From positions 5,001 to 69,000 of the forward strand of contig CALDSU010000011.1 in the NCBI GenBank assembly GCA_937924525.1: a DNA stretch of 64,000 nucleotides, given 5' to 3'. The first letter of the stretch is position 1, and every line of letters starts with the position of its first letter. This document shows, in pieces, positions 55,936 through 64,000 of the stretch. The notes beneath the pieces were generated by a model, which was not told the origin of the DNA, made no database searches, and saw nothing but the letters and a program-made list of their open reading frames with translations. The position numbers and the translations under genes are program-made. The stretch is from an uncultured Bryobacteraceae bacterium. GTDB lineage: Bacteria > Acidobacteriota > Terriglobia > Bryobacterales > Bryobacteraceae.

Positions 55936-57051
55936 CTACATGAAGTAGTCTTTGACCTTTTCGAAAATGCCCTTTTCCCGGGGTTCGTTTTCCACCGGCA
56001 GGGTGTCGCGCAGTTTCTCGAGCAGTTCGCGCTGTTGTCTAGTCAGTTTGGTCGGCACCCGCACCTCGACGTGGGCGTACAGATCGCCCCGGCCGTGGCC
56101 GTTCACATGCGGCACGCCCTTGCCGCGGAACCGGAACTGCGCACCCGTCTGCGTGCCCTCGGGGATCTTCAACGTCTCCGTGCCGTCGAGCGTGGGAATT
56201 TCGACTTCCGCGCCCAGCGCGGCCTGTGCGAAGTTAATCGGGATCGTGCAGTGCAAGTCGTTCTCGCGGCGCTCGAAGAAGGGGTGCTCGCGGACTTTCA
56301 GCAGGACGTACAGGTCGCCCGGCGGACCGCCGTTAACGCCCGGCTGGCCTTCGTGCGAAAGGCGCAGGCGCGTGCCGTTGTCCACTCCCGCGGGAATGGT
56401 CACCTTGAGTTTGCGCTCGACGCGCTTGTAGCCATCGCCCTTGCATTGCGGGCAAGGCCGGCGGATGATCTCGCCGGCGCCGTTGCACTGGCCACAAGTA
56501 CGGCGGATCGACAGAAAGCTCTGCTGGTAGATCACCTCGCCGCGGCCCTTGCAGGTGGGGCAGGTGACCAGACCGCCCGGCTCGGCCCCTTTGCCGGAGC
56601 AAGTCCCGCACATTTCCAGGCGCGGGACCTGGATCTCCGCAGTCAAGCCCTTCACGGCGTCATCGAAGTCGATCTCCAGGTCGTAGCGCAGGTCCTCCCC
56701 ACGCTGAGCCCGGCTCCGCCGGCGGCCGCCCCCGCCGCCGAACAGGTCCCCAAAGCCGAACAGGTCGCCGAGGATATCGTTGAAATCGGTGAAGGCGTTG
56801 GGGTCGAAGCCCGGCGAACCGCCCGCCGCGACGCCCTGGTGGCCATACCGGTCGTAGGCCGCGCGCTTCTGCGGGTCGCTCAGGACGCTATAGGCTTCGG
56901 CGGCTTCCTTGAACTTCTCCTCCGCCTCCGGACTGTTGGGATTGCGGTCCGGGTGATATTTCAGCGCCATCTTGCGATAGGCGCTCTTGAGTTGCTGCTC
57001 GTCCGCGTCCCGGCCGACACCAAGGACCTCGTAGTAATCTCGCTTCGTCAC
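55936..57051 (-). CDS. dnaJ: Chaperone DnaJ
   Basis: 371 residues from a GTG. J domain 1-70 with the catalytic YHPDRN; Gly/Phe-rich region around 75-115 ([23 protein letters not shown]); four CxxCxGxG zinc boxes ([32 protein letters not shown]); then the substrate-binding C-terminal halves. This is a full-length type-I DnaJ that feeds unfolded clients to DnaK and stimulates its ATPase. It is the last gene of hrcA-grpE-dnaJ, 22 bases after grpE. No clear ribosome site precedes the GTG, so reinitiation after grpE is likely. Confidence 0.95.
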
Positions 57052-57073
57052 GCAGTTTGCTCGCGGAAGGGGC

Positions 57074-57655
57074 CTAGGCCGGCGCGACCGCGACCTTCAC
57101 CATGGCGGCCCGCAATAATTTCCCTTTAAAATTGTACCCTTGCTGGTAAACAGCCAGCACCGTGTGATCCGGCGCCTCGGCGGTTTCGGCGCGATCCACC
57201 GCCTGATGCACATTTGGGTCGAAGGGCTGCCCCTGGCACTCCATGGGCTCCAACCCCGCCTTCTTCAGCGCGTCGAGGAGCCGCTGATAGATCAATTCCA
57301 CGCCGCGCCGATAACCGCCGTCCACGCCTTCGGCCGCCGCCTCTCCCGCCTGCAACGCACGTTCGAAATCATCCAGGATGGGCAGCAGCGATTTGACCAC
57401 CTCCGCCGCCGCATACTCGGAAAACTCGATGCGTTCGCGCTCGGTGCGGCGGCGGAAGTTCTCAAATTCCGCCTGCCGGCGCAGCAACAAATCCTGCAAT
57501 TCCGCCTTTTCGGCCGCCAACTGGTCCCGTTCGGCGGCCAGCGCCGCCAGGGCCGCGGCCAGATCTTCCGTCGCCGGAGCGGAATCGCCCGGGACAGCCG
57601 CCGCCTCCGCCGGCGCCGCTTCCGGTTCCTGAGTCACCTGATTTTCTGAATTCAC
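57074..57655 (-). CDS. grpE: Nucleotide exchange factor GrpE
   Basis: 193 residues from a GTG with AAGGTGG upstream. An acidic, Ala-rich N-terminus is followed by the long coiled coil ([37 protein letters not shown]) and the beta-wing end ([52 protein letters not shown]). It releases ADP from DnaK and also acts as thermosensor. It lies between hrcA and dnaJ on the same strand, with 56 bases to hrcA. Confidence 0.94.
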
Positions 57656-57711
57656 AGTTCCACCTTAACAGAGGTCTTGCCGGGCTTTCGGGCGCTCCGC
57701 GCCGGACGCCG

Positions 57712-58794
57712 TTAATGGTACGTTTCCGTGAAGAGACGGCCCAGGTGCAGCACCGCGCCCATCACGCGCTCATAGTGGATGCGCATGGGACCGAGCACGG
57801 CGACCTTCGCCATCAATCCACCGGGCAAGGCGACGGACGTGCCGATCAGCACCAGTTCATTCATGGCCGGGTGGGCCTCCCCCAGCCCAATCTGCACCCG
57901 GACTTCGCCGGGCATTTCTTCGAGAAAACGGTCCAGCAGTTCGACCAGGCGCTTCTTCTCCTCCAGCGCCCGCATCAACTCGCGCAGCTTCTGCTGGTTC
58001 AGTCCGGACTCCCCGATCAGATTCGACGCGCCGTCCAGGTATACCTCGGGGATTTCCCCCGCGTCCAGCAAGCCCTTGCTGTACAAGAGGGTCAGTTTCC
58101 GCTGGAGCGCGTCGCAAGCCGCGCGTTCCACGTCGATCCGCCGCAGCAGTTCTGTCCGCGCCTGAAACAGGGTCCACCCGCTGAACTGGCGGTTCACGTA
58201 ATTGCGGATGGAGGCAAGTTCCTCGGGGGACACCGGTTCATCCAGGGTCACCACGCGGTGGCGCACCATCCGGTCCCGGGTCGCCAGAATCATCAACACC
58301 CGCCCGCCCGACAGACTGACCAATTCCACCTGGTCCAGCACCTGTGCGGAGGTGGGAATCGCCGCGGCAATGCCAACGTTCCGGGTGATCTCCGTCAGCA
58401 CGTGCGAGGACTTTTCCACGTGCTCCTCCAGCGTCTCGGAAGACGCCAGTTGCCGGCGCATGCGCTCCGCCTCCCCCGGCGGGATGCGGCCCGCCTCCAA
58501 GGAGGCGACGAAATACCGGAAGGCCTTCTCGGTCGGGACCCGGCCCGCGGAAGTATGCGGCTGGCTCAAGTAGCCGGAATCCTCCAGATCGGCCATCGCG
58601 TTCCGGATGGTGGCCGGACTCAGGTTGTCCAGCCGGGCGCGCGAAACCGTGCGCGAGGCCACTGGTTCGCCCGTCTCGATGTAGGCGCGCACGACGGACG
58701 TCAATACTTCGTGGGCCCGCAACGGCAGCCTTTCGTCCACTCTCTTCATGAGCGCGCGATCTTCAGGAGGAGCTTCTACTGCGAGTTTATCCAA
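57712..58794 (-). CDS. hrcA: Heat-inducible transcription repressor HrcA
   Basis: 360 residues. The winged-helix N-terminus (AHEVLTSVVRAYIETGEPVASRTVSR, LSPATIRNAMADLEDSGYLSQPHTSAGRVPTEKAFRYFV) and the long regulatory domain match HrcA. HrcA binds the CIRCE inverted repeat to repress heat-shock operons and needs GroE to stay active. The TTG at 58794 is the first start; ATG 58749 (MKRVDERLPLRAHEVL) would remove 15 unconserved residues and is a good alternative. Neither has a clear ribosome site. I see no CIRCE in the 99-base leader. It is the first gene of an hrcA-grpE-dnaJ run that has no dnaK. Confidence 0.93.
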   Translation of the reverse strand: MDKLAVEAPPEDRALMKRVDERLPLRAHEVLTSVVRAYIETGEPVASRTVSRARLDNLSPATIRNAMADLEDSGYLSQPHTSAGRVPTEKAFRYFVASLEAGRIPPGEAERMRRQLASSETLEEHVEKSSHVLTEITRNVGIAAAIPTSAQVLDQVELVSLSGGRVLMILATRDRMVRHRVVTLDEPVSPEELASIRNYVNRQFSGWTLFQARTELLRRIDVERAACDALQRKLTLLYSKGLLDAGEIPEVYLDGASNLIGESGLNQQKLRELMRALEEKKRLVELLDRFLEEMPGEVRVQIGLGEAHPAMNELVLIGTSVALPGGLMAKVAVLGPMRIHYERVMGAVLHLGRLFTETYH

Positions 58795-58893: not shown

Positions 58894-59826
58894 ATGAGGA
58901 TCGAGTCTCTGTTGACCGAGGCCGAAATCTCGGAAGAATTCGCCGAGGCGCTGGAAGCCCGCGACCTGCCCGAGAAGTTTTTCTATTGGTCGCCGATGTC
59001 GGTGCGCGCCTGGCAGGCGCTCTCGCGCGATCTGGCGTTTGAAAGCTGCCTGCACTCCTGGAACCTGCTGGTGCACGACAGCGAGTCCATCGCGCGGGAA
59101 TTCAACCAGGCGATTTCGGTGGTCAGCCTGGGCGCGGGGAGCGGGGCGAAGGACCTGTTGCTGTTGAAAGCGCTGGAACAGGCGGGGAAGCAGGTAGAGT
59201 ACCTGCCGGTGGACGCCAGCATGCCGCTGCTGGAGCGGGCATGCGCGGCGGCCGAAGAGGGTGAGATCGAGGCGCTGGGCCTGAAAGCCGATATTTCGAG
59301 TCCCGTGCACCTGGTGCTGATCTCGGACACGCCCGAACATCCGCGCCTGTATTTGTTGTGCGGCAACACGCTGGGCGGCTTCGATCCTTTGGACGAGCTG
59401 ATGCAACTGGCCAGTTGCATGCGCTCCGGGGACCGCCTGATTGTGGATGCCGAACTGGCCGACGGGTCGGCGCTGCCCTCGCGCGACCACCCGGTGGGCC
59501 GCCGGTTCGCCCTGGCCCCCCTCACCGCGATCGGCGTCGGTCCGGATGACGGCGAAGTAATGTTCGAACTTCGGGAGGACGACCGCCACGCCGGCCTGGA
59601 GGTGGTCACCCGCCATTTTCACGTCGCGCGCGACCTTCGCCTTCGCCTGCCGGAGCGCGAGATTCCGGTGCAGCGGGGCGAGCGGATCAACCTGAATTTC
59701 AACTACACCTACAGCCCGGAGGCGTTTCGCTGGCTGCTGGCCGAGCGGGCGGGACTGCACATCCTGCGGGAGTACCCGAGTCCGGACGGCCGCTACGTCA
59801 CCGCCGTGTGCGCCCGGTCGCGCTAA
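58894..59826 (+). CDS. EgtD-like SAM-dependent histidine-type methyltransferase
   Basis: 310 residues. It belongs to the histidine-specific methyltransferase group: AISVVSLGAGSGAKDLLLLKAL is the SAM-binding loop, then VEYLPVDASMPLLERA, LYLLCGNTLGGFDPLDELMQL and, near the end, RINLNFNYTYSPEAFRWLL. EgtD makes hercynine (trimethyl-histidine) for ergothioneine. No EgtB or other ergothioneine gene is visible here, so another acceptor is possible. It is divergent from hrcA and 57 bases ahead of the DUF2256-photolyase genes, probably in one transcript with them. Confidence 0.82.
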   Translation: MRIESLLTEAEISEEFAEALEARDLPEKFFYWSPMSVRAWQALSRDLAFESCLHSWNLLVHDSESIAREFNQAISVVSLGAGSGAKDLLLLKALEQAGKQVEYLPVDASMPLLERACAAAEEGEIEALGLKADISSPVHLVLISDTPEHPRLYLLCGNTLGGFDPLDELMQLASCMRSGDRLIVDAELADGSALPSRDHPVGRRFALAPLTAIGVGPDDGEVMFELREDDRHAGLEVVTRHFHVARDLRLRLPEREIPVQRGERINLNFNYTYSPEAFRWLLAERAGLHILREYPSPDGRYVTAVCARSR

Positions 59827-59883: not shown

Positions 59884-60033
59884 ATGCCGAGGGGGCGAAA
59901 GCGCGCTCTGCCGTCGAAGATTTGCCCGGTTTGCGCCCGTCCGTTCACCTGGCGGAAGAAATGGGAACGCGACTGGAAAAACGTGCGGTATTGCAGCGAG
60001 CGGTGCCGGCGTTCCGGAAGGAGTCCCGGGTGA
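59884..60033 (+). CDS. DUF2256 small zinc-ribbon-like protein
   Basis: Only 49 residues, easily missed. It begins [20 protein letters not shown] and continues [23 protein letters not shown], ending GRSPG. Cysteines 14, 17, 37 and 41 make a C-x2-C-x19-C-x3-C metal site, and the aromatic/basic core FTWRKKW is the DUF2256 hallmark. DUF2256 genes are often found next to photolyase/cryptochrome genes; their function is unknown. The TGA overlaps the GTG start of the next gene by 4 bases (GTGA), which also fixes that start. GAGG lies 13 bases before the ATG. Confidence 0.9.
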
Positions 60034-60836
60034 GCGAGGAATTGCGGCGCTCGTTCGCCAGCCGCGAAGATCTGGCCGCATATTTGAAGGAGCAGTTTCC
60101 GGAAGCAGCCGCCATCGACTCGCACGTCAGCCCGTTCGAGGGCGGCCGCACCGCCGCGGAACGGCGTCTTGCGCAAATCGAACCCGCCCGCTACGCCTTT
60201 ACCCGAAACTATCTGGACGGGATGGTGACCAGGCTGTCTCCCTACATCCGGCACGGCGTGGTCAGCCTCGGCGAGGTGCGGGATCTGGCGCTCGCCCGCG
60301 TCGACGACCCGTTGCATGCCTCCAAGTTCCTCGCCGAGCTCACCTGGCGCGACTATTGGCAGCGCCTCTATGCCCGCTGGGGCGACGGCATCTGGCGGGA
60401 CCGCGAGCCCTACAAAACCGGCTGGCGCGCGGAGGACTACGCCGCCGAACTGCCCGACGAAATCCGGCAGGCGCGCACGGGTCTGGCCTGCATGGACGCC
60501 TTCGCGAAGGAACTGCACGAAACGGGTTACCTGCACAATCACGCGCGCATGTGGGTGGCGGCTTACGTCGTGCACTGGCGAAGGGTGCGTTGGCAGGCCG
60601 GGGCGCGCTGGTTTCTCCAGCACCTGGTGGACGGCGATCCAGCCAGCAACAACCTGTCGTGGCAGTGGGTGGCCAGCACGTTCAGCCACAAGCCGTACTT
60701 TTTCAACCGCGAGAACCTGGAGAAATATTCGGGCGGCGTTCATTGCCGCCGGTGTTCCGTGCGGGGACGTTGCGACTTTGAAGGCAGCTACGCCGCGCTG
60801 AGCGAGAAGCTGTTCCCGCGGAGGAGCCCGGCATGA
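60030..60836 (+). CDS. Stand-alone photolyase FAD-binding (catalytic) domain protein
   Basis: 268 residues from a GTG with AAGGAG 9 bases ahead and a GTGA overlap with DUF2256. It is a photolyase/cryptochrome C-terminal domain only: [72 protein letters not shown], and [15 protein letters not shown] with the Asn next to flavin N5 (N208). Tryptophans 106, 175 and 211/213 could form an electron chain. After the domain comes C239-x2-C242-x5-C248, a possible metal site. The N-terminal alpha/beta domain is missing from this protein and is encoded by the next gene. Confidence 0.9.
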
Positions 60837-61339
60837 CCAGCGTGCTCTGGATTCATGAGGACGTGCTGAATCCGAAAGCCGCGATCTGGCAACGCCCTTA
60901 CGCCGGCGCCGTGTTCGTTTTCGACGCGGAGCAACTGCGCGAAGCGGGATACAGCCTCAAGCGCGTGATGTTCCTTTACGAAAGTCTTCTGGAGTTGCCG
61001 GTTTCGATCCGGCAGGGGAATACGGAGGAGGTCGTCTCTTCGTTCGCGGCGGAGCGAGGCGCGCAACGTATTCTGACCAGCGCCAGCGTGCAGCCCTGGA
61101 TCCGGCGCGTGGTGGAGCGGCTGCGGGCGCGCTGGAGTGTGGAAGTGGTCCCGGAGGCTCCTTTCCTGGATGGTCCGGAACCGTCCGACCTGACGCGGTT
61201 CGCCCGTTTCTGGCGGCAGGTGGAACCTTACGCGTTCGGCAGGGAGCCATGGCTCAGGGCGCGGCGCGCAGCCGCAGCCGCGGCGCGGCCGGCGACGGGA
61301 GACCGGACCACAACGCAATCGCGGCGCCCTCGCCAATGA
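60833..61339 (+). CDS. Stand-alone photolyase N-terminal alpha/beta (antenna) domain protein
   Basis: 168 residues, ATG overlapping the stop of the FAD-domain gene by 4 bases (ATGA). The sequence follows the DNA-photolyase N-terminal Rossmann-like domain: SVLWIHEDVLNPKAA, AVFVFDAEQL, LKRVMFLYESLLELPVSIRQGNTEEVVSSF, AQRILTSASVQPWIRRVV. In ordinary photolyases this domain comes first and binds the light-harvesting pigment. Here it is a separate gene placed second. The last 29 codons overlap the 3' end of the convergent kinase gene (61254-61339). The Arg/Ala-rich tail beyond FGREPW is probably disordered. Confidence 0.78.
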   Translation: MTSVLWIHEDVLNPKAAIWQRPYAGAVFVFDAEQLREAGYSLKRVMFLYESLLELPVSIRQGNTEEVVSSFAAERGAQRILTSASVQPWIRRVVERLRARWSVEVVPEAPFLDGPEPSDLTRFARFWRQVEPYAFGREPWLRARRAAAAAARPATGDRTTTQSRRPRQ

Positions 61340-63428
61340 TCGCCACTTCGCGGCCATCCGGCCGGAAAGCCGCCGCCGCCACGCGCCGTTGCCGCATCGG
61401 GGCCAGGAGCATCTCCCCGCGCCAGACGTCCCATACCCGAACGCCTTCGGCGGTCTGGAGCACCGCGACGCACCGGTTGTCTTCCACAAAAGACACCGCC
61501 ACCACCCGGGACGGCGGATGGGACAGATGCAGCGGGCTGGCGTTCCGGGCGTCGAGAATGCGCACCTGATCGTCGCCGACCACCGCCAGGTACTGCCCGT
61601 CTGGACTGAAGATGACGTTTCGCGCGCCGCGCTCGAGACCCGGTCCGCGAATCGGGGCGGCATCCGGCGCCAACCGCCAGAGCCGGGTCGTCTTGTCCGC
61701 GGCGGCCATGGCGAGCCAGCCGCCGGCGGGATGAAAGGCCAGCGCCAGCGGCTCGCGCCGCACGTCGCGCAGATCGGTCACTACCCCCTTTTCGCGGAGC
61801 GACCACAACCGCACGCGGCGGTCGGAAGTGCCGAAAGCCACCCACCTGGCGTCCGGGCTGATGGCCACCGACCGTACCGGGGCCGATTGTCCAAAGGTCT
61901 TGGTTTCGATCCCCTCCTTGAGATTCCACACCTTGACCGCGCCGTCGGCGCCGCCGGAAATCAGCGACGCGGAATCCCCACTAAAGGCGAGCGAGGTCAC
62001 GGAGGCGGAGTGGGCGACGAGCGGACGCACCCGGCGCGGCGGCCGAACCTGCCAAAGCTCGATGACGCCTTGCCCTCCGCCGACAGCCAGCCAGCGCCCG
62101 TCCGGACTAAGCGCCACCGCCAATGGCTGCGACCCGGGCGGCAGAATGCCGATGGGGTGCAGCCGTCCTGCGGGATGCATGGGCGAAACCGGTTCCGTCT
62201 GCGCCGGCGGCGGAACCGGTTTGGGCTCGGCAGGGGGCGGCATCTCCGCCATGGCATGCCGCGGAGCAGGGGCCGGAACCGCAAGCGGCGCGGACGATTC
62301 CGCCGGTGGTGCGGGAACGGGAGGTGGCGTCCGCCGGGGCGCCGCCGCGCTCACCACCACGCTGGTGACCTCGCGCGGCGGTCCGTCCTGCTCCGCCGTG
62401 GGTGGCACAGCAGGCGGCGCGGGTAAGCGCAGGGCCAGGACCTCAACCGGGCGCTCGATCGCGTCCCACACCGCGCGCGCCCCCACCACTGCCCCGAAAC
62501 CAGCCAGGGCGGCGGCGGCCGCCAGCCAGCCCAAGGGCGCAGGCCGCCTTCCAGCCGTCCGGGGGGGGGCGGCGGGAGTCCGGATCTCAAGCGCCCGGGT
62601 GAGCGCCTCCCGGAATTCGCGGGCGCTGGCGTACCGGTCCTCGCGACGCTTCGCCATGGCCCGCAGCACCACTTGGCTGACCGCCGGAGGGACCCCGGGA
62701 TTGCGGACATGGGGTGGCTCCGGCTCCGTTTCCAGGTGCGCCCGCATCAGCGCGAACGAGTTATCCAGAGGGAAGGGTTTTCCGCCAGTGACCACTTCGT
62801 ACAGCACGGCGCCCAGCGAGTAGATGTCGGTCCGCAAATCCACGTCGGGGTCCGACCGGACTTGCTCGGGCGAGATGTAGTGCAGCGAACCCACCACCGC
62901 GCCGGTTTGCGTGAGACGGGGATCGTCCAGGGTCCGGGCCAGGCCGAAATCCGTCAGCTTCAGCACCCCGTCCGGCGTGAGCAGCATGTTGGAAGGTTTC
63001 AGATCCCGGTGCGTGACGCCGCGCTCATGGGCGTATTCGAGCGCCGCCAGCGCTTGCAGGATGTAGCCTGCGCCGGTCCGCAATGGCAGCCTGCCTTGCG
63101 CGAGCGCCTGCTCGAGCGTCCTCCCTTCCACCAGTTCCATCACCATCACCAGGTGTCCGCGAGCCCGGGATGCATTGAGCACAGTGGCGATGTGGGGATG
63201 AACCAGGCTGGCCTGCAATTGGATCTCGCGGAGAAACCGCGCGGCGTGGCTCGGGTCGCCCGCGCGCTCGCGCAACAGGACCTTCATCGCCTCGACCCGC
63301 CGGGTAATGGTGTGCTCCACTTTGTAGACTTCGCCCGCGGCGCCACTGCCCGCGAGGCCGATCACGCGGTATTCGCCCACCTGGTCGCCCAAGCGGAACG
63401 GACCGGAGGATGGAGAGAGCGTTTCGAT
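61254..63428 (-). CDS. Ser/Thr protein kinase with WD40-repeat C-terminus
   Basis: About 724 residues. Kinase domain ~20-290 with GLAGSGAAGEVYKVEH, catalytic K49 (VEAMKV), HRDLKPSN, TDFGLA and SPEQ. A transmembrane segment (APLGWLAAAAALAGFGAVVGARAVW) near 330, a long Pro-rich stretch, then about seven WD40 blades (GVIELWQV, GAVKVWNL, RRVRLWSL, KTTRLWRL, VRVWDVW). It should signal at the membrane with an extracytoplasmic sensor propeller. The start is uncertain: TGAGGAGG, the stop of the previous kinase plus a perfect ribosome site, lies 5 bases before ATC at 63428. The first ordinary start is TTG at 63392, without a ribosome site. Confidence 0.84.
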   Translation of the reverse strand: METLSPSSGPFRLGDQVGEYRVIGLAGSGAAGEVYKVEHTITRRVEAMKVLLRERAGDPSHAARFLREIQLQASLVHPHIATVLNASRARGHLVMVMELVEGRTLEQALAQGRLPLRTGAGYILQALAALEYAHERGVTHRDLKPSNMLLTPDGVLKLTDFGLARTLDDPRLTQTGAVVGSLHYISPEQVRSDPDVDLRTDIYSLGAVLYEVVTGGKPFPLDNSFALMRAHLETEPEPPHVRNPGVPPAVSQVVLRAMAKRREDRYASAREFREALTRALEIRTPAAPPRTAGRRPAPLGWLAAAAALAGFGAVVGARAVWDAIERPVEVLALRLPAPPAVPPTAEQDGPPREVTSVVVSAAAPRRTPPPVPAPPAESSAPLAVPAPAPRHAMAEMPPPAEPKPVPPPAQTEPVSPMHPAGRLHPIGILPPGSQPLAVALSPDGRWLAVGGGQGVIELWQVRPPRRVRPLVAHSASVTSLAFSGDSASLISGGADGAVKVWNLKEGIETKTFGQSAPVRSVAISPDARWVAFGTSDRRVRLWSLREKGVVTDLRDVRREPLALAFHPAGGWLAMAAADKTTRLWRLAPDAAPIRGPGLERGARNVIFSPDGQYLAVVGDDQVRILDARNASPLHLSHPPSRVVAVSFVEDNRCVAVLQTAEGVRVWDVWRGEMLLAPMRQRRVAAAAFRPDGREVAIIGEGAAIALWSGLPSPAAPRLRLRAAP

Positions 63429-63438
63429 GGCGGCCTCC

Positions 63439-64000
63439 TCAGCCCTTCGTGAGCGTGAGAAACCAGTAGAAAACGACCAGCACGACAACGAAGGTAACCA
63501 GGGCCAGCAGGAGCAGGCGGGGTGTCGACCAGCCGGGCGAAACAGGTCGCGGCGCCGGCACCTCACGAATTTGGGAGGGGCGCGCCGCCGGCTCGGGGAA
63601 AATCACGGGGGGCGGAGCCGCCGGAGGCGGAGAGGGTGGCGGGGGCAAAGCCACCGTCCGGTCGACCGGCGGCGCGGGAGCGGTAGCCGGCGTCGCGCGC
63701 CGGGCGGGCGCGCCGTTTTCGGCCAGGTTCTCCAGCGCCGATTGAAAGGCCAGCGCCGAGGCGAAGCGTTTCTCCGGATCCTTTTCGAGCGCCGTCAGCA
63801 CAATCGAACTCAGTTCGGCCGGCAGCTCCGGATTCAGCTCGAGCGGAGACCGGGGTTGGCGCTGCACATGCGCCAGCATCAGTTCAAACTGCGATTCGCA
63901 GATGAACGGCACCTGCCCGGTGAGCATCTCGTACAGCACGGCGCCGGTGGAGTACACATCGGTTCGTCCGTCGAGGGGAGCGCCCTGGATCTGTTCCGGG
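63439..64000 (-). CDS. Ser/Thr protein kinase, C-terminal part (start beyond window)
   Basis: About 187 residues of the end of a kinase open to the window edge: PEQIQGAPLDGRTDVYSTGAVLYEMLTGQVPF, the end of the activation segment and helix F, then LEKDPEKRFASALAFQSALENL. The rest is a Pro/Ala-rich linker and a C-terminal tail anchor (LLLLALVTFVVVLVVFYWFLTLTKG). The kinase would thus be cytoplasmic and fixed to the membrane by its tail, unlike its WD40-bearing neighbour. Its TGA overlaps the ribosome site of the next kinase gene 10 bases downstream, so the two are co-translated. Confidence 0.87.
   Translation of the reverse strand, partial: PEQIQGAPLDGRTDVYSTGAVLYEMLTGQVPFICESQFELMLAHVQRQPRSPLELNPELPAELSSIVLTALEKDPEKRFASALAFQSALENLAENGAPARRATPATAPAPPVDRTVALPPPPSPPPAAPPPVIFPEPAARPSQIREVPAPRPVSPGWSTPRLLLLALVTFVVVLVVFYWFLTLTKG

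Follow-up and report, generated by a model that had tools for sequence, protein, structure and literature searches.

Photolyases whose two parts are encoded separately have been described in marine Synechococcus, where the FAD gene (phr4) and the alpha/beta gene (phr5) occur in reversed order and a fused form (phr6) also exists (Haney et al. 2022, PMC9426592). In that article phr4 and phr5 lie seven base pairs apart, and Phr4 has cysteines at positions 169, 254, 257 and 263. On the basis of these four cysteines the authors proposed that Phr4/Phr5 is a (6-4) photolyase, and they left undecided whether the pair forms two subunits or a frameshifted fusion (PMC9426592). They also reported that disruption of phr4 in RS9916 lowered UV-C survival 20-30 fold with no measurable effect on UV-B survival, and that phr4/phr5 in E. 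coli gave protection after UV-C, with no significant difference between light and dark, and none after UV-B (PMC9426592). The same article describes NewPHL (Emmerich et al. 2020) as a single chain of inverted topology with a short C-terminal domain and no four-cysteine set, and says that NewPHL/SPL relatives repair CPDs (PMC9426592). For S. elongatus, the part of a further article that we cite lists three genes of the family: a class I gene, a FeS-BCP gene and the SPL gene SephrC (PMC9178010). Our literature searches on split and short photolyases found Haney et al. as the sole work on a split photolyase.

The window, by which we mean the whole 64,000-nucleotide stretch of acidobacterial DNA that was analysed, contains a locus of the Phr4/Phr5 kind (Table 1). 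As in Synechococcus, the FAD and alpha/beta halves are separate genes in reversed order, and the FAD half has exactly four cysteines (Cys154, 239, 242 and 248) with a spacing identical to that in Phr4. The window locus differs in that a DUF2256 gene comes first and that the genes overlap by four bases, whereas phr4 and phr5 are seven base pairs apart. The word DUF2256 is absent from the text of PMC9426592, a literature search pairing DUF2256 with photolyase found nothing, and the DUF2256 operon is without earlier description in the literature searched. The original prediction of two reversed photolyase halves, with GTGA and ATGA overlaps linking the genes, was borne out by the ORFs, Pfam, the family profile and the fold. 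Its view that such an arrangement was undescribed is wrong, as phr4/phr5/phr6 had been published (PMC9426592).

Table 1. Genes and start/stop overlaps at the window locus, with neighboring genes.
Feature	Coordinates	Strand	Description and basis
HrcA, GrpE, DnaJ heat-shock genes	55936..58794	-	consecutive; divergent from the photolyase stretch
Histidine-specific methyltransferase gene	58894..59826	+	EgtD-like; PF10017, E=1.4e-19; ends 57 bases before DUF2256
DUF2256 gene	59884..60033	+	49 aa, four-cysteine, TRASH-clan metal-binding-type; PF10013 E=1.8e-21 (Pfam), full-length profile match
GTGA overlap, DUF2256 stop / FAD-half start	60030..60033	+	sequence
FAD/catalytic half, Phr4/SPL type	60030..60836	+	268 aa; FAD_binding_7 PF03441 E=1.5e-25 (Pfam)
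ATGA overlap, FAD-half stop / alpha/beta-half start	60833..60836	+	sequence
Alpha/beta half, Phr5 type	60833..61339	+	168 aa; PF00875 weak match, family profile, model
Kinase ORF	61254..63566		convergent; overlaps the final ~30 residues of the alpha/beta half

The FAD half and the alpha/beta half are two ORFs with a stop codon between them. The methyltransferase gene upstream is on the same strand as DUF2256 and may share a transcript with it. PADLOC gave no match, and NCBIfam gave sub-threshold matches only.

We consider it probable, at roughly 80%, that the window pair encodes a photolyase of Phr4/Phr5 (SPL) type made of two subunits. The FAD-half protein would carry the flavin, the residues for lesion binding and electron transfer and, probably, a [4Fe-4S] cluster. 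The alpha/beta domain, N-terminal in ordinary photolyases, would be a free subunit docked to the FAD-half protein, where it would shield the flavin and perhaps hold an antenna pigment. Reduced FAD, once excited by light, would then cleave a pyrimidine dimer, in all likelihood a CPD, and the DUF2256 protein from the same operon would probably be a small metal-binding accessory. The sequences themselves show the gene layout, the homology, the joint occurrence of the halves and the conserved residues; the heterodimer, the Fe-S cluster, the CPD specificity, the antenna and the role of DUF2256 are deductions from these. The 20-30 times lower UV-C survival of the phr4 mutant is consistent with such an enzyme; on the other hand, the similar protection in light and dark after UV-C in E. 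coli, and its absence after UV-B, speak against it (PMC9426592).

Taken singly, the window alpha/beta protein matched DNA_photolyase (PF00875) at E=2e-4 with 21.8 bits, which does not reach the gathering score of 26.6 and counts against the two-subunit reading, and a single-sequence PDB search returned four chance-level matches and no photolyase. As a family, all 8 members of set A2 (the window protein counted) matched PF00875 at E<=1, the best at 1.1e-6, and the A2 profile found photolyase/cryptochrome N-domains in the PDB (6fn0, E=2.6e-5; 1tez, 3.9e-4). For an AF2 model of the window protein (pLDDT 90.5, pTM 0.74), the top fold matches were photolyase N-domains (1iqr, Z 12.3, rmsd 4.3 over 140 residues; 3zxs, 12.2; 4dja, 12.0), and Foldseek returned 6dd6 (E=1.2e-4, TMq 0.51). 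The alpha/beta fold by itself is not exclusive, because universal stress proteins followed at Z ~10 and phosphopantetheine adenylyltransferases were among the Foldseek matches. Judged by sequence profile and modelled fold together, the third gene is a photolyase N-domain. A failure of this gene to match that domain had been named as grounds for giving up the original prediction; this applies in the narrow sense alone that the PF00875 score of the window protein is below the cut-off, while profile and fold identify the N-domain.

Alignment A3, which took 61 of 69 alpha/beta sequences, showed conservation of W6, H8, D31, R44, F47, G62 and W127; alignment A4 consisted of 76 rows picked by hand. 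The tail of the window protein beyond residue ~138 is without conservation. Compared with seven relatives each, the alpha/beta half of the window was 28-37% identical and the FAD half 43-53%.

The four cysteines of the FAD half align with those of the Fe-S photolyases (FeS-BCP/DPRP) at an hhalign probability of 97%, and by their positions they are probably the ligands of a [4Fe-4S] cluster. FeS-BCP/DPRP enzymes such as PhrB differ from the window proteins in that their domains stand in the usual order and their N-domain is PF04244, a profile that did not match window proteins P0001 and P0002 at E<=1 (Pfam). The complete four-cysteine set was present in 58 of 81 FAD-half rows, and since it was incomplete in the other 23, an Fe-S cluster would not be general to the family; these rows also count against the two-subunit reading as we have drawn it. 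The 23 rows (within L085-L164) are mostly proteobacterial by title, and 13 of them keep the cysteine of column 154.

Counted by hand on the alignment, E103 and W106 of the window protein correspond to E274 and W277 of the E. coli enzyme, N170 and M174 to N341 and M345, W188 and W211 to W359 and W382, and N207 to N378, positions that we take to have the photolyase roles known from E. coli numbering. Among the 81 rows, conservation was complete for N170, W188 and N207 and extended to 78 rows for E103, 79 for W106, 73 for M174 and 75 for W211. These residues argue for an active photolyase. Eukaryotic (6-4) enzymes have His/His at the positions of the Asn/Met pair. By its residues the active site looks CPD-type, contrary to the (6-4) proposal of Haney et al.

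A (6-4) photolyase is an alternative that we regard as unlikely. The four cysteines are held in common with Fe-S (6-4) photolyases, and phr4 was needed for survival of UV-C and not of UV-B (PMC9426592). The model of a natural fusion, L127, was a well-defined two-domain protein (pLDDT 91.1, pTM 0.91), and its FAD part gave PhrB 5kcm (Z 16.4) and the V. cholerae enzyme 7ykn (Z 15.9) as best folds, which also favors a (6-4) enzyme, although the fold scores (12-16) lie close together. With the sequential aligners Foldseek and VIA-align, most matches to this model spanned the FAD part only. Against a (6-4) specificity stand the Asn/Met pair, the CPD repair ascribed to NewPHL/SPL relatives in the cited sections of PMC9426592, and the sequence profile of the FAD half, which matched class I CPD photolyases best in the PDB (1tez, E=1.7e-28) and far above the bacterial (6-4) enzyme 8ijy (8.9e-5).

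GTDB contigs scanned with the FAD profile yielded at least 591 related stretches, of which the best 80 were retained; phyla were assigned by record titles, and the labels of at least two bins appear to be wrong. The best 80 belonged to Cyanobacteria, Chloroflexota, Acidobacteriota, one Acidimicrobiia and Proteobacteria, and by record titles the family occurs in at least six phyla, mostly split and sometimes fused. The FAD half was followed by the alpha/beta half as an adjacent separate ORF in 63 of these best 80 of at least 591 relatives and within a single ORF in five (L127, L142, L143, L152 and L163), a recurrence that places this order beyond chance. A 4-base start/stop overlap is possible at 27 of the 63 split junctions. 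The alpha/beta half was absent from the locus in the remaining 12, namely L089, which lies at a contig end, and 11 cyanobacteria. In all 11 the alpha/beta gene was found elsewhere in the assembly (E<=1e-43), with linkage across a contig gap possible for L093, L109 and L141, whose fetched locus ends <=1.5 kb downstream. Among four Deinococcus plasmids, three had a fused gene and one had separate genes overlapping by four bases.

In a quick tree, the window protein fell within an 83-row clade (SH-aLRT 88, with many inner forks open and a long-branch warning), nearest to relatives from Acidobacteriota and Chloroflexota. The Synechococcus/Cyanobium loci L127, L130, L142 and L163 are in the same clade of this tree, which was built without the RS9916 protein itself. 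The split-photolyase family and NewPHL-like rows were together separate from 21 classical photolyases. NewPHL resembles the window pair in its inverted topology, and NewPHL-like rows also have the HNHxRM motif (L053); however, these rows lie outside the 83-row clade, and the window has two ORFs where NewPHL is one chain sealed by a C-terminal domain. The fused state required three changes on the tree, which was built without L001, L002, L013 and L049 (copies of the window gene), L042 (a copy of L056), L006, L051 and L160. L144, titled Klebsiella pneumoniae, grouped with alphaproteobacterial/Obscuribacterales rows and L114, titled Tatlockia sp., with cyanobacterial rows; both bins are probably mislabelled or contaminated.

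The original prediction also proposed that DUF2256 and the two halves form a fixed three-part complex. This goes too far: DUF2256 adjoined the pair in 23 of the best 80 of at least 591 relatives (20 directly upstream; 3 downstream, L146, L147 and L151) and in some genomes it also neighbors DPRP, a different photolyase family. An upstream DUF2256 was present in 10 of 11 Chloroflexota (the eleventh, L139, begins at a contig end), 9 of 11 Acidobacteriota and the one actinomycete among these best 80, and in 11 of the 20 its stop can overlap the next start by four bases. The remaining 57 loci, as retrieved, showed no DUF2256, the 36 other cyanobacterial loci included. The protein belongs by Pfam (PF10013) to the TRASH clan of cysteine metal-binding domains, according to the part of PMC4047054 that we cite, and the portions of the literature naming DUF2256 that we searched gave no function for it. 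It is probably a small metal-binding accessory expressed with the photolyase here.

We find it doubtful that DUF2256 serves the split photolyase as a dedicated third subunit or as an Fe-S loading factor. In favor of such a role, besides its position beside the pair in these 23 loci, is its presence in 47 of the 48 searched genomes with a Phr4-type gene (the 48 cover part of the 80 loci), including all 18 without DPRP. That count is not decisive, because in our control 109 of 116 cyanobacterial genomes had DUF2256, where it is not adjacent, and 26 had the FAD half; the same numbers led us to reject DUF2256 as an exclusive Phr4/Phr5 partner. Five loci with an adjacent DUF2256 (L129, L134, L146, L147 and L151) have an incomplete four-cysteine set, which also speaks against a loading factor. 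A more general role as Fe-S helper was not supported, since the presence of the DPRP Fe-S motif did not follow that of DUF2256: within the window's phylum, the C-terminal three-cysteine motif of DPRP was present in 10 of 10 proteins assessed from genomes without DUF2256 (an 11th was a truncated gene), and 7 of 28 DPRP rows from DUF2256 genomes were without it, two of the seven possibly cut short. In that phylum DUF2256 occurred in 44 and DPRP in 38 of 396 genomes, both together in 27 by hand count (Fisher p=9.8e-22, kinship ignored). DUF2256 adjoined DPRP in five proteobacterial genomes (L199-L203; L200 by coordinates) and in L044 of the window's phylum. Its other neighbors, which likewise argue against a dedicated subunit, were an Asparaginase_2 gene in several filamentous cyanobacteria (L193, L194 and L212 by Pfam; L196, L210 and L211 by eye) and a DNA ligase in a SAR116 genome. 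In G425 a second DUF2256-FAD-half chain (L209, 1260-4028) occurs in addition to that of L119, and it is followed by an ordinary full-length photolyase and no alpha/beta half.

The two halves themselves were closely associated across genomes. We searched 116 genomes of the cyanobacterial class with cut-offs of E<=1e-30 for the FAD half and E<=1e-15 for the alpha/beta half, and found the former in 26 and the latter in 27, the 26 lying entirely within the 27. The alpha/beta half was thus present in 26 of 26 genomes with the FAD half as compared to 1 of 90 without it (Fisher p=4.8e-25, kinship ignored). The single exception, G517 (C97:13659-14075), may be an incomplete assembly. The pair was on the same strand with the FAD half first and within 1.7 kb in 21 of the 26. 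On the other hand, the halves were 0.54-1.04 Mb apart on the same contig in G473, G487, G501 and G553, and on different contigs in G534. In the window's phylum, the FAD half occurred in 4 of 396 genomes (E below 1e-75) and the alpha/beta half in the same four (199 genomes searched), a fifth match lying inside an ordinary photolyase ORF. Three of the four (G096, G123 and G165) have the halves far apart on one contig, with all three genes at separate places. The original prediction that the parts would assemble in trans is supported by these unlinked cases, five among the 26 cyanobacteria and three relatives in the window's phylum.

These data bear on the possibility that the FAD half works alone and that the alpha/beta gene is a dispensable relic. 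Xu et al., in work from 2021, reportedly described SPLs as lacking an alpha/beta domain, with one SPL active alone; this favors a relic and speaks against the two-subunit reading, and the faster divergence of the alpha/beta half (identities as above) points the same way. The window FAD half resembles an SPL in that its polypeptide has an FAD domain and no alpha/beta domain (Pfam), but it is followed by a separate alpha/beta gene. The same appears to hold for S. elongatus. Of 219 residues, 2 separate the DPRP domain of G474 from that of PDB 8ijy, an entry titled S. elongatus, so G474 is S. elongatus or very near it; it has one strong FAD-half match, with an alpha/beta gene directly downstream, and as S. 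elongatus has the single SPL gene SephrC, this match should be SephrC. The sequences therefore suggest that the SPL of S. elongatus is an FAD half with an alpha/beta gene next door. Given the 26 of 26 co-occurrence, unlinked cases included, the seven residues conserved among 61 alpha/beta rows and the fusions that account for three changes on the tree, we consider a relic improbable.

Programmed frameshifting across the junction into one fused protein, with no heterodimer, is more improbable still: the genes overlap, natural fusions exist (e.g. on Deinococcus plasmids and in L127) and the cited sections of Haney et al. raise the option for phr4/phr5 (PMC9426592), but a frameshifted single chain is impossible in the four cyanobacterial genomes with halves 0.54-1.04 Mb apart, where, as in the fifth with halves on different contigs and in G096, G123 and G165, separate proteins must suffice.

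For those lineages at least, the genomes with halves up to 1 Mb apart answer the question of subunits versus fusion raised by Haney et al. in favor of separate proteins. A wider generalization, which we put forward tentatively and would not yet rely on, is that SPL/Phr4 proteins are half-enzymes, that an obligate heterodimer of an FAD/[4Fe-4S] and an alpha/beta subunit occurs in at least six phyla and assembles even from unlinked genes, that fusions are secondary, and that DUF2256 is an accessory common to several bacterial photolyase families. Assays of SPLs, if they were run without the alpha/beta subunit, may have given a mistaken picture of activity, substrate and antenna, a point that matters for the view of SPLs as the ancestral form of photolyases. 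DUF2256, a small protein that is widespread and uncharacterised, can be put to the test in the context of this operon. In G487, one of the genomes with distant halves, the DPRP gene (C1:925749-926394) was matched in overlapping pieces with an internal stop and looks broken or frameshifted.
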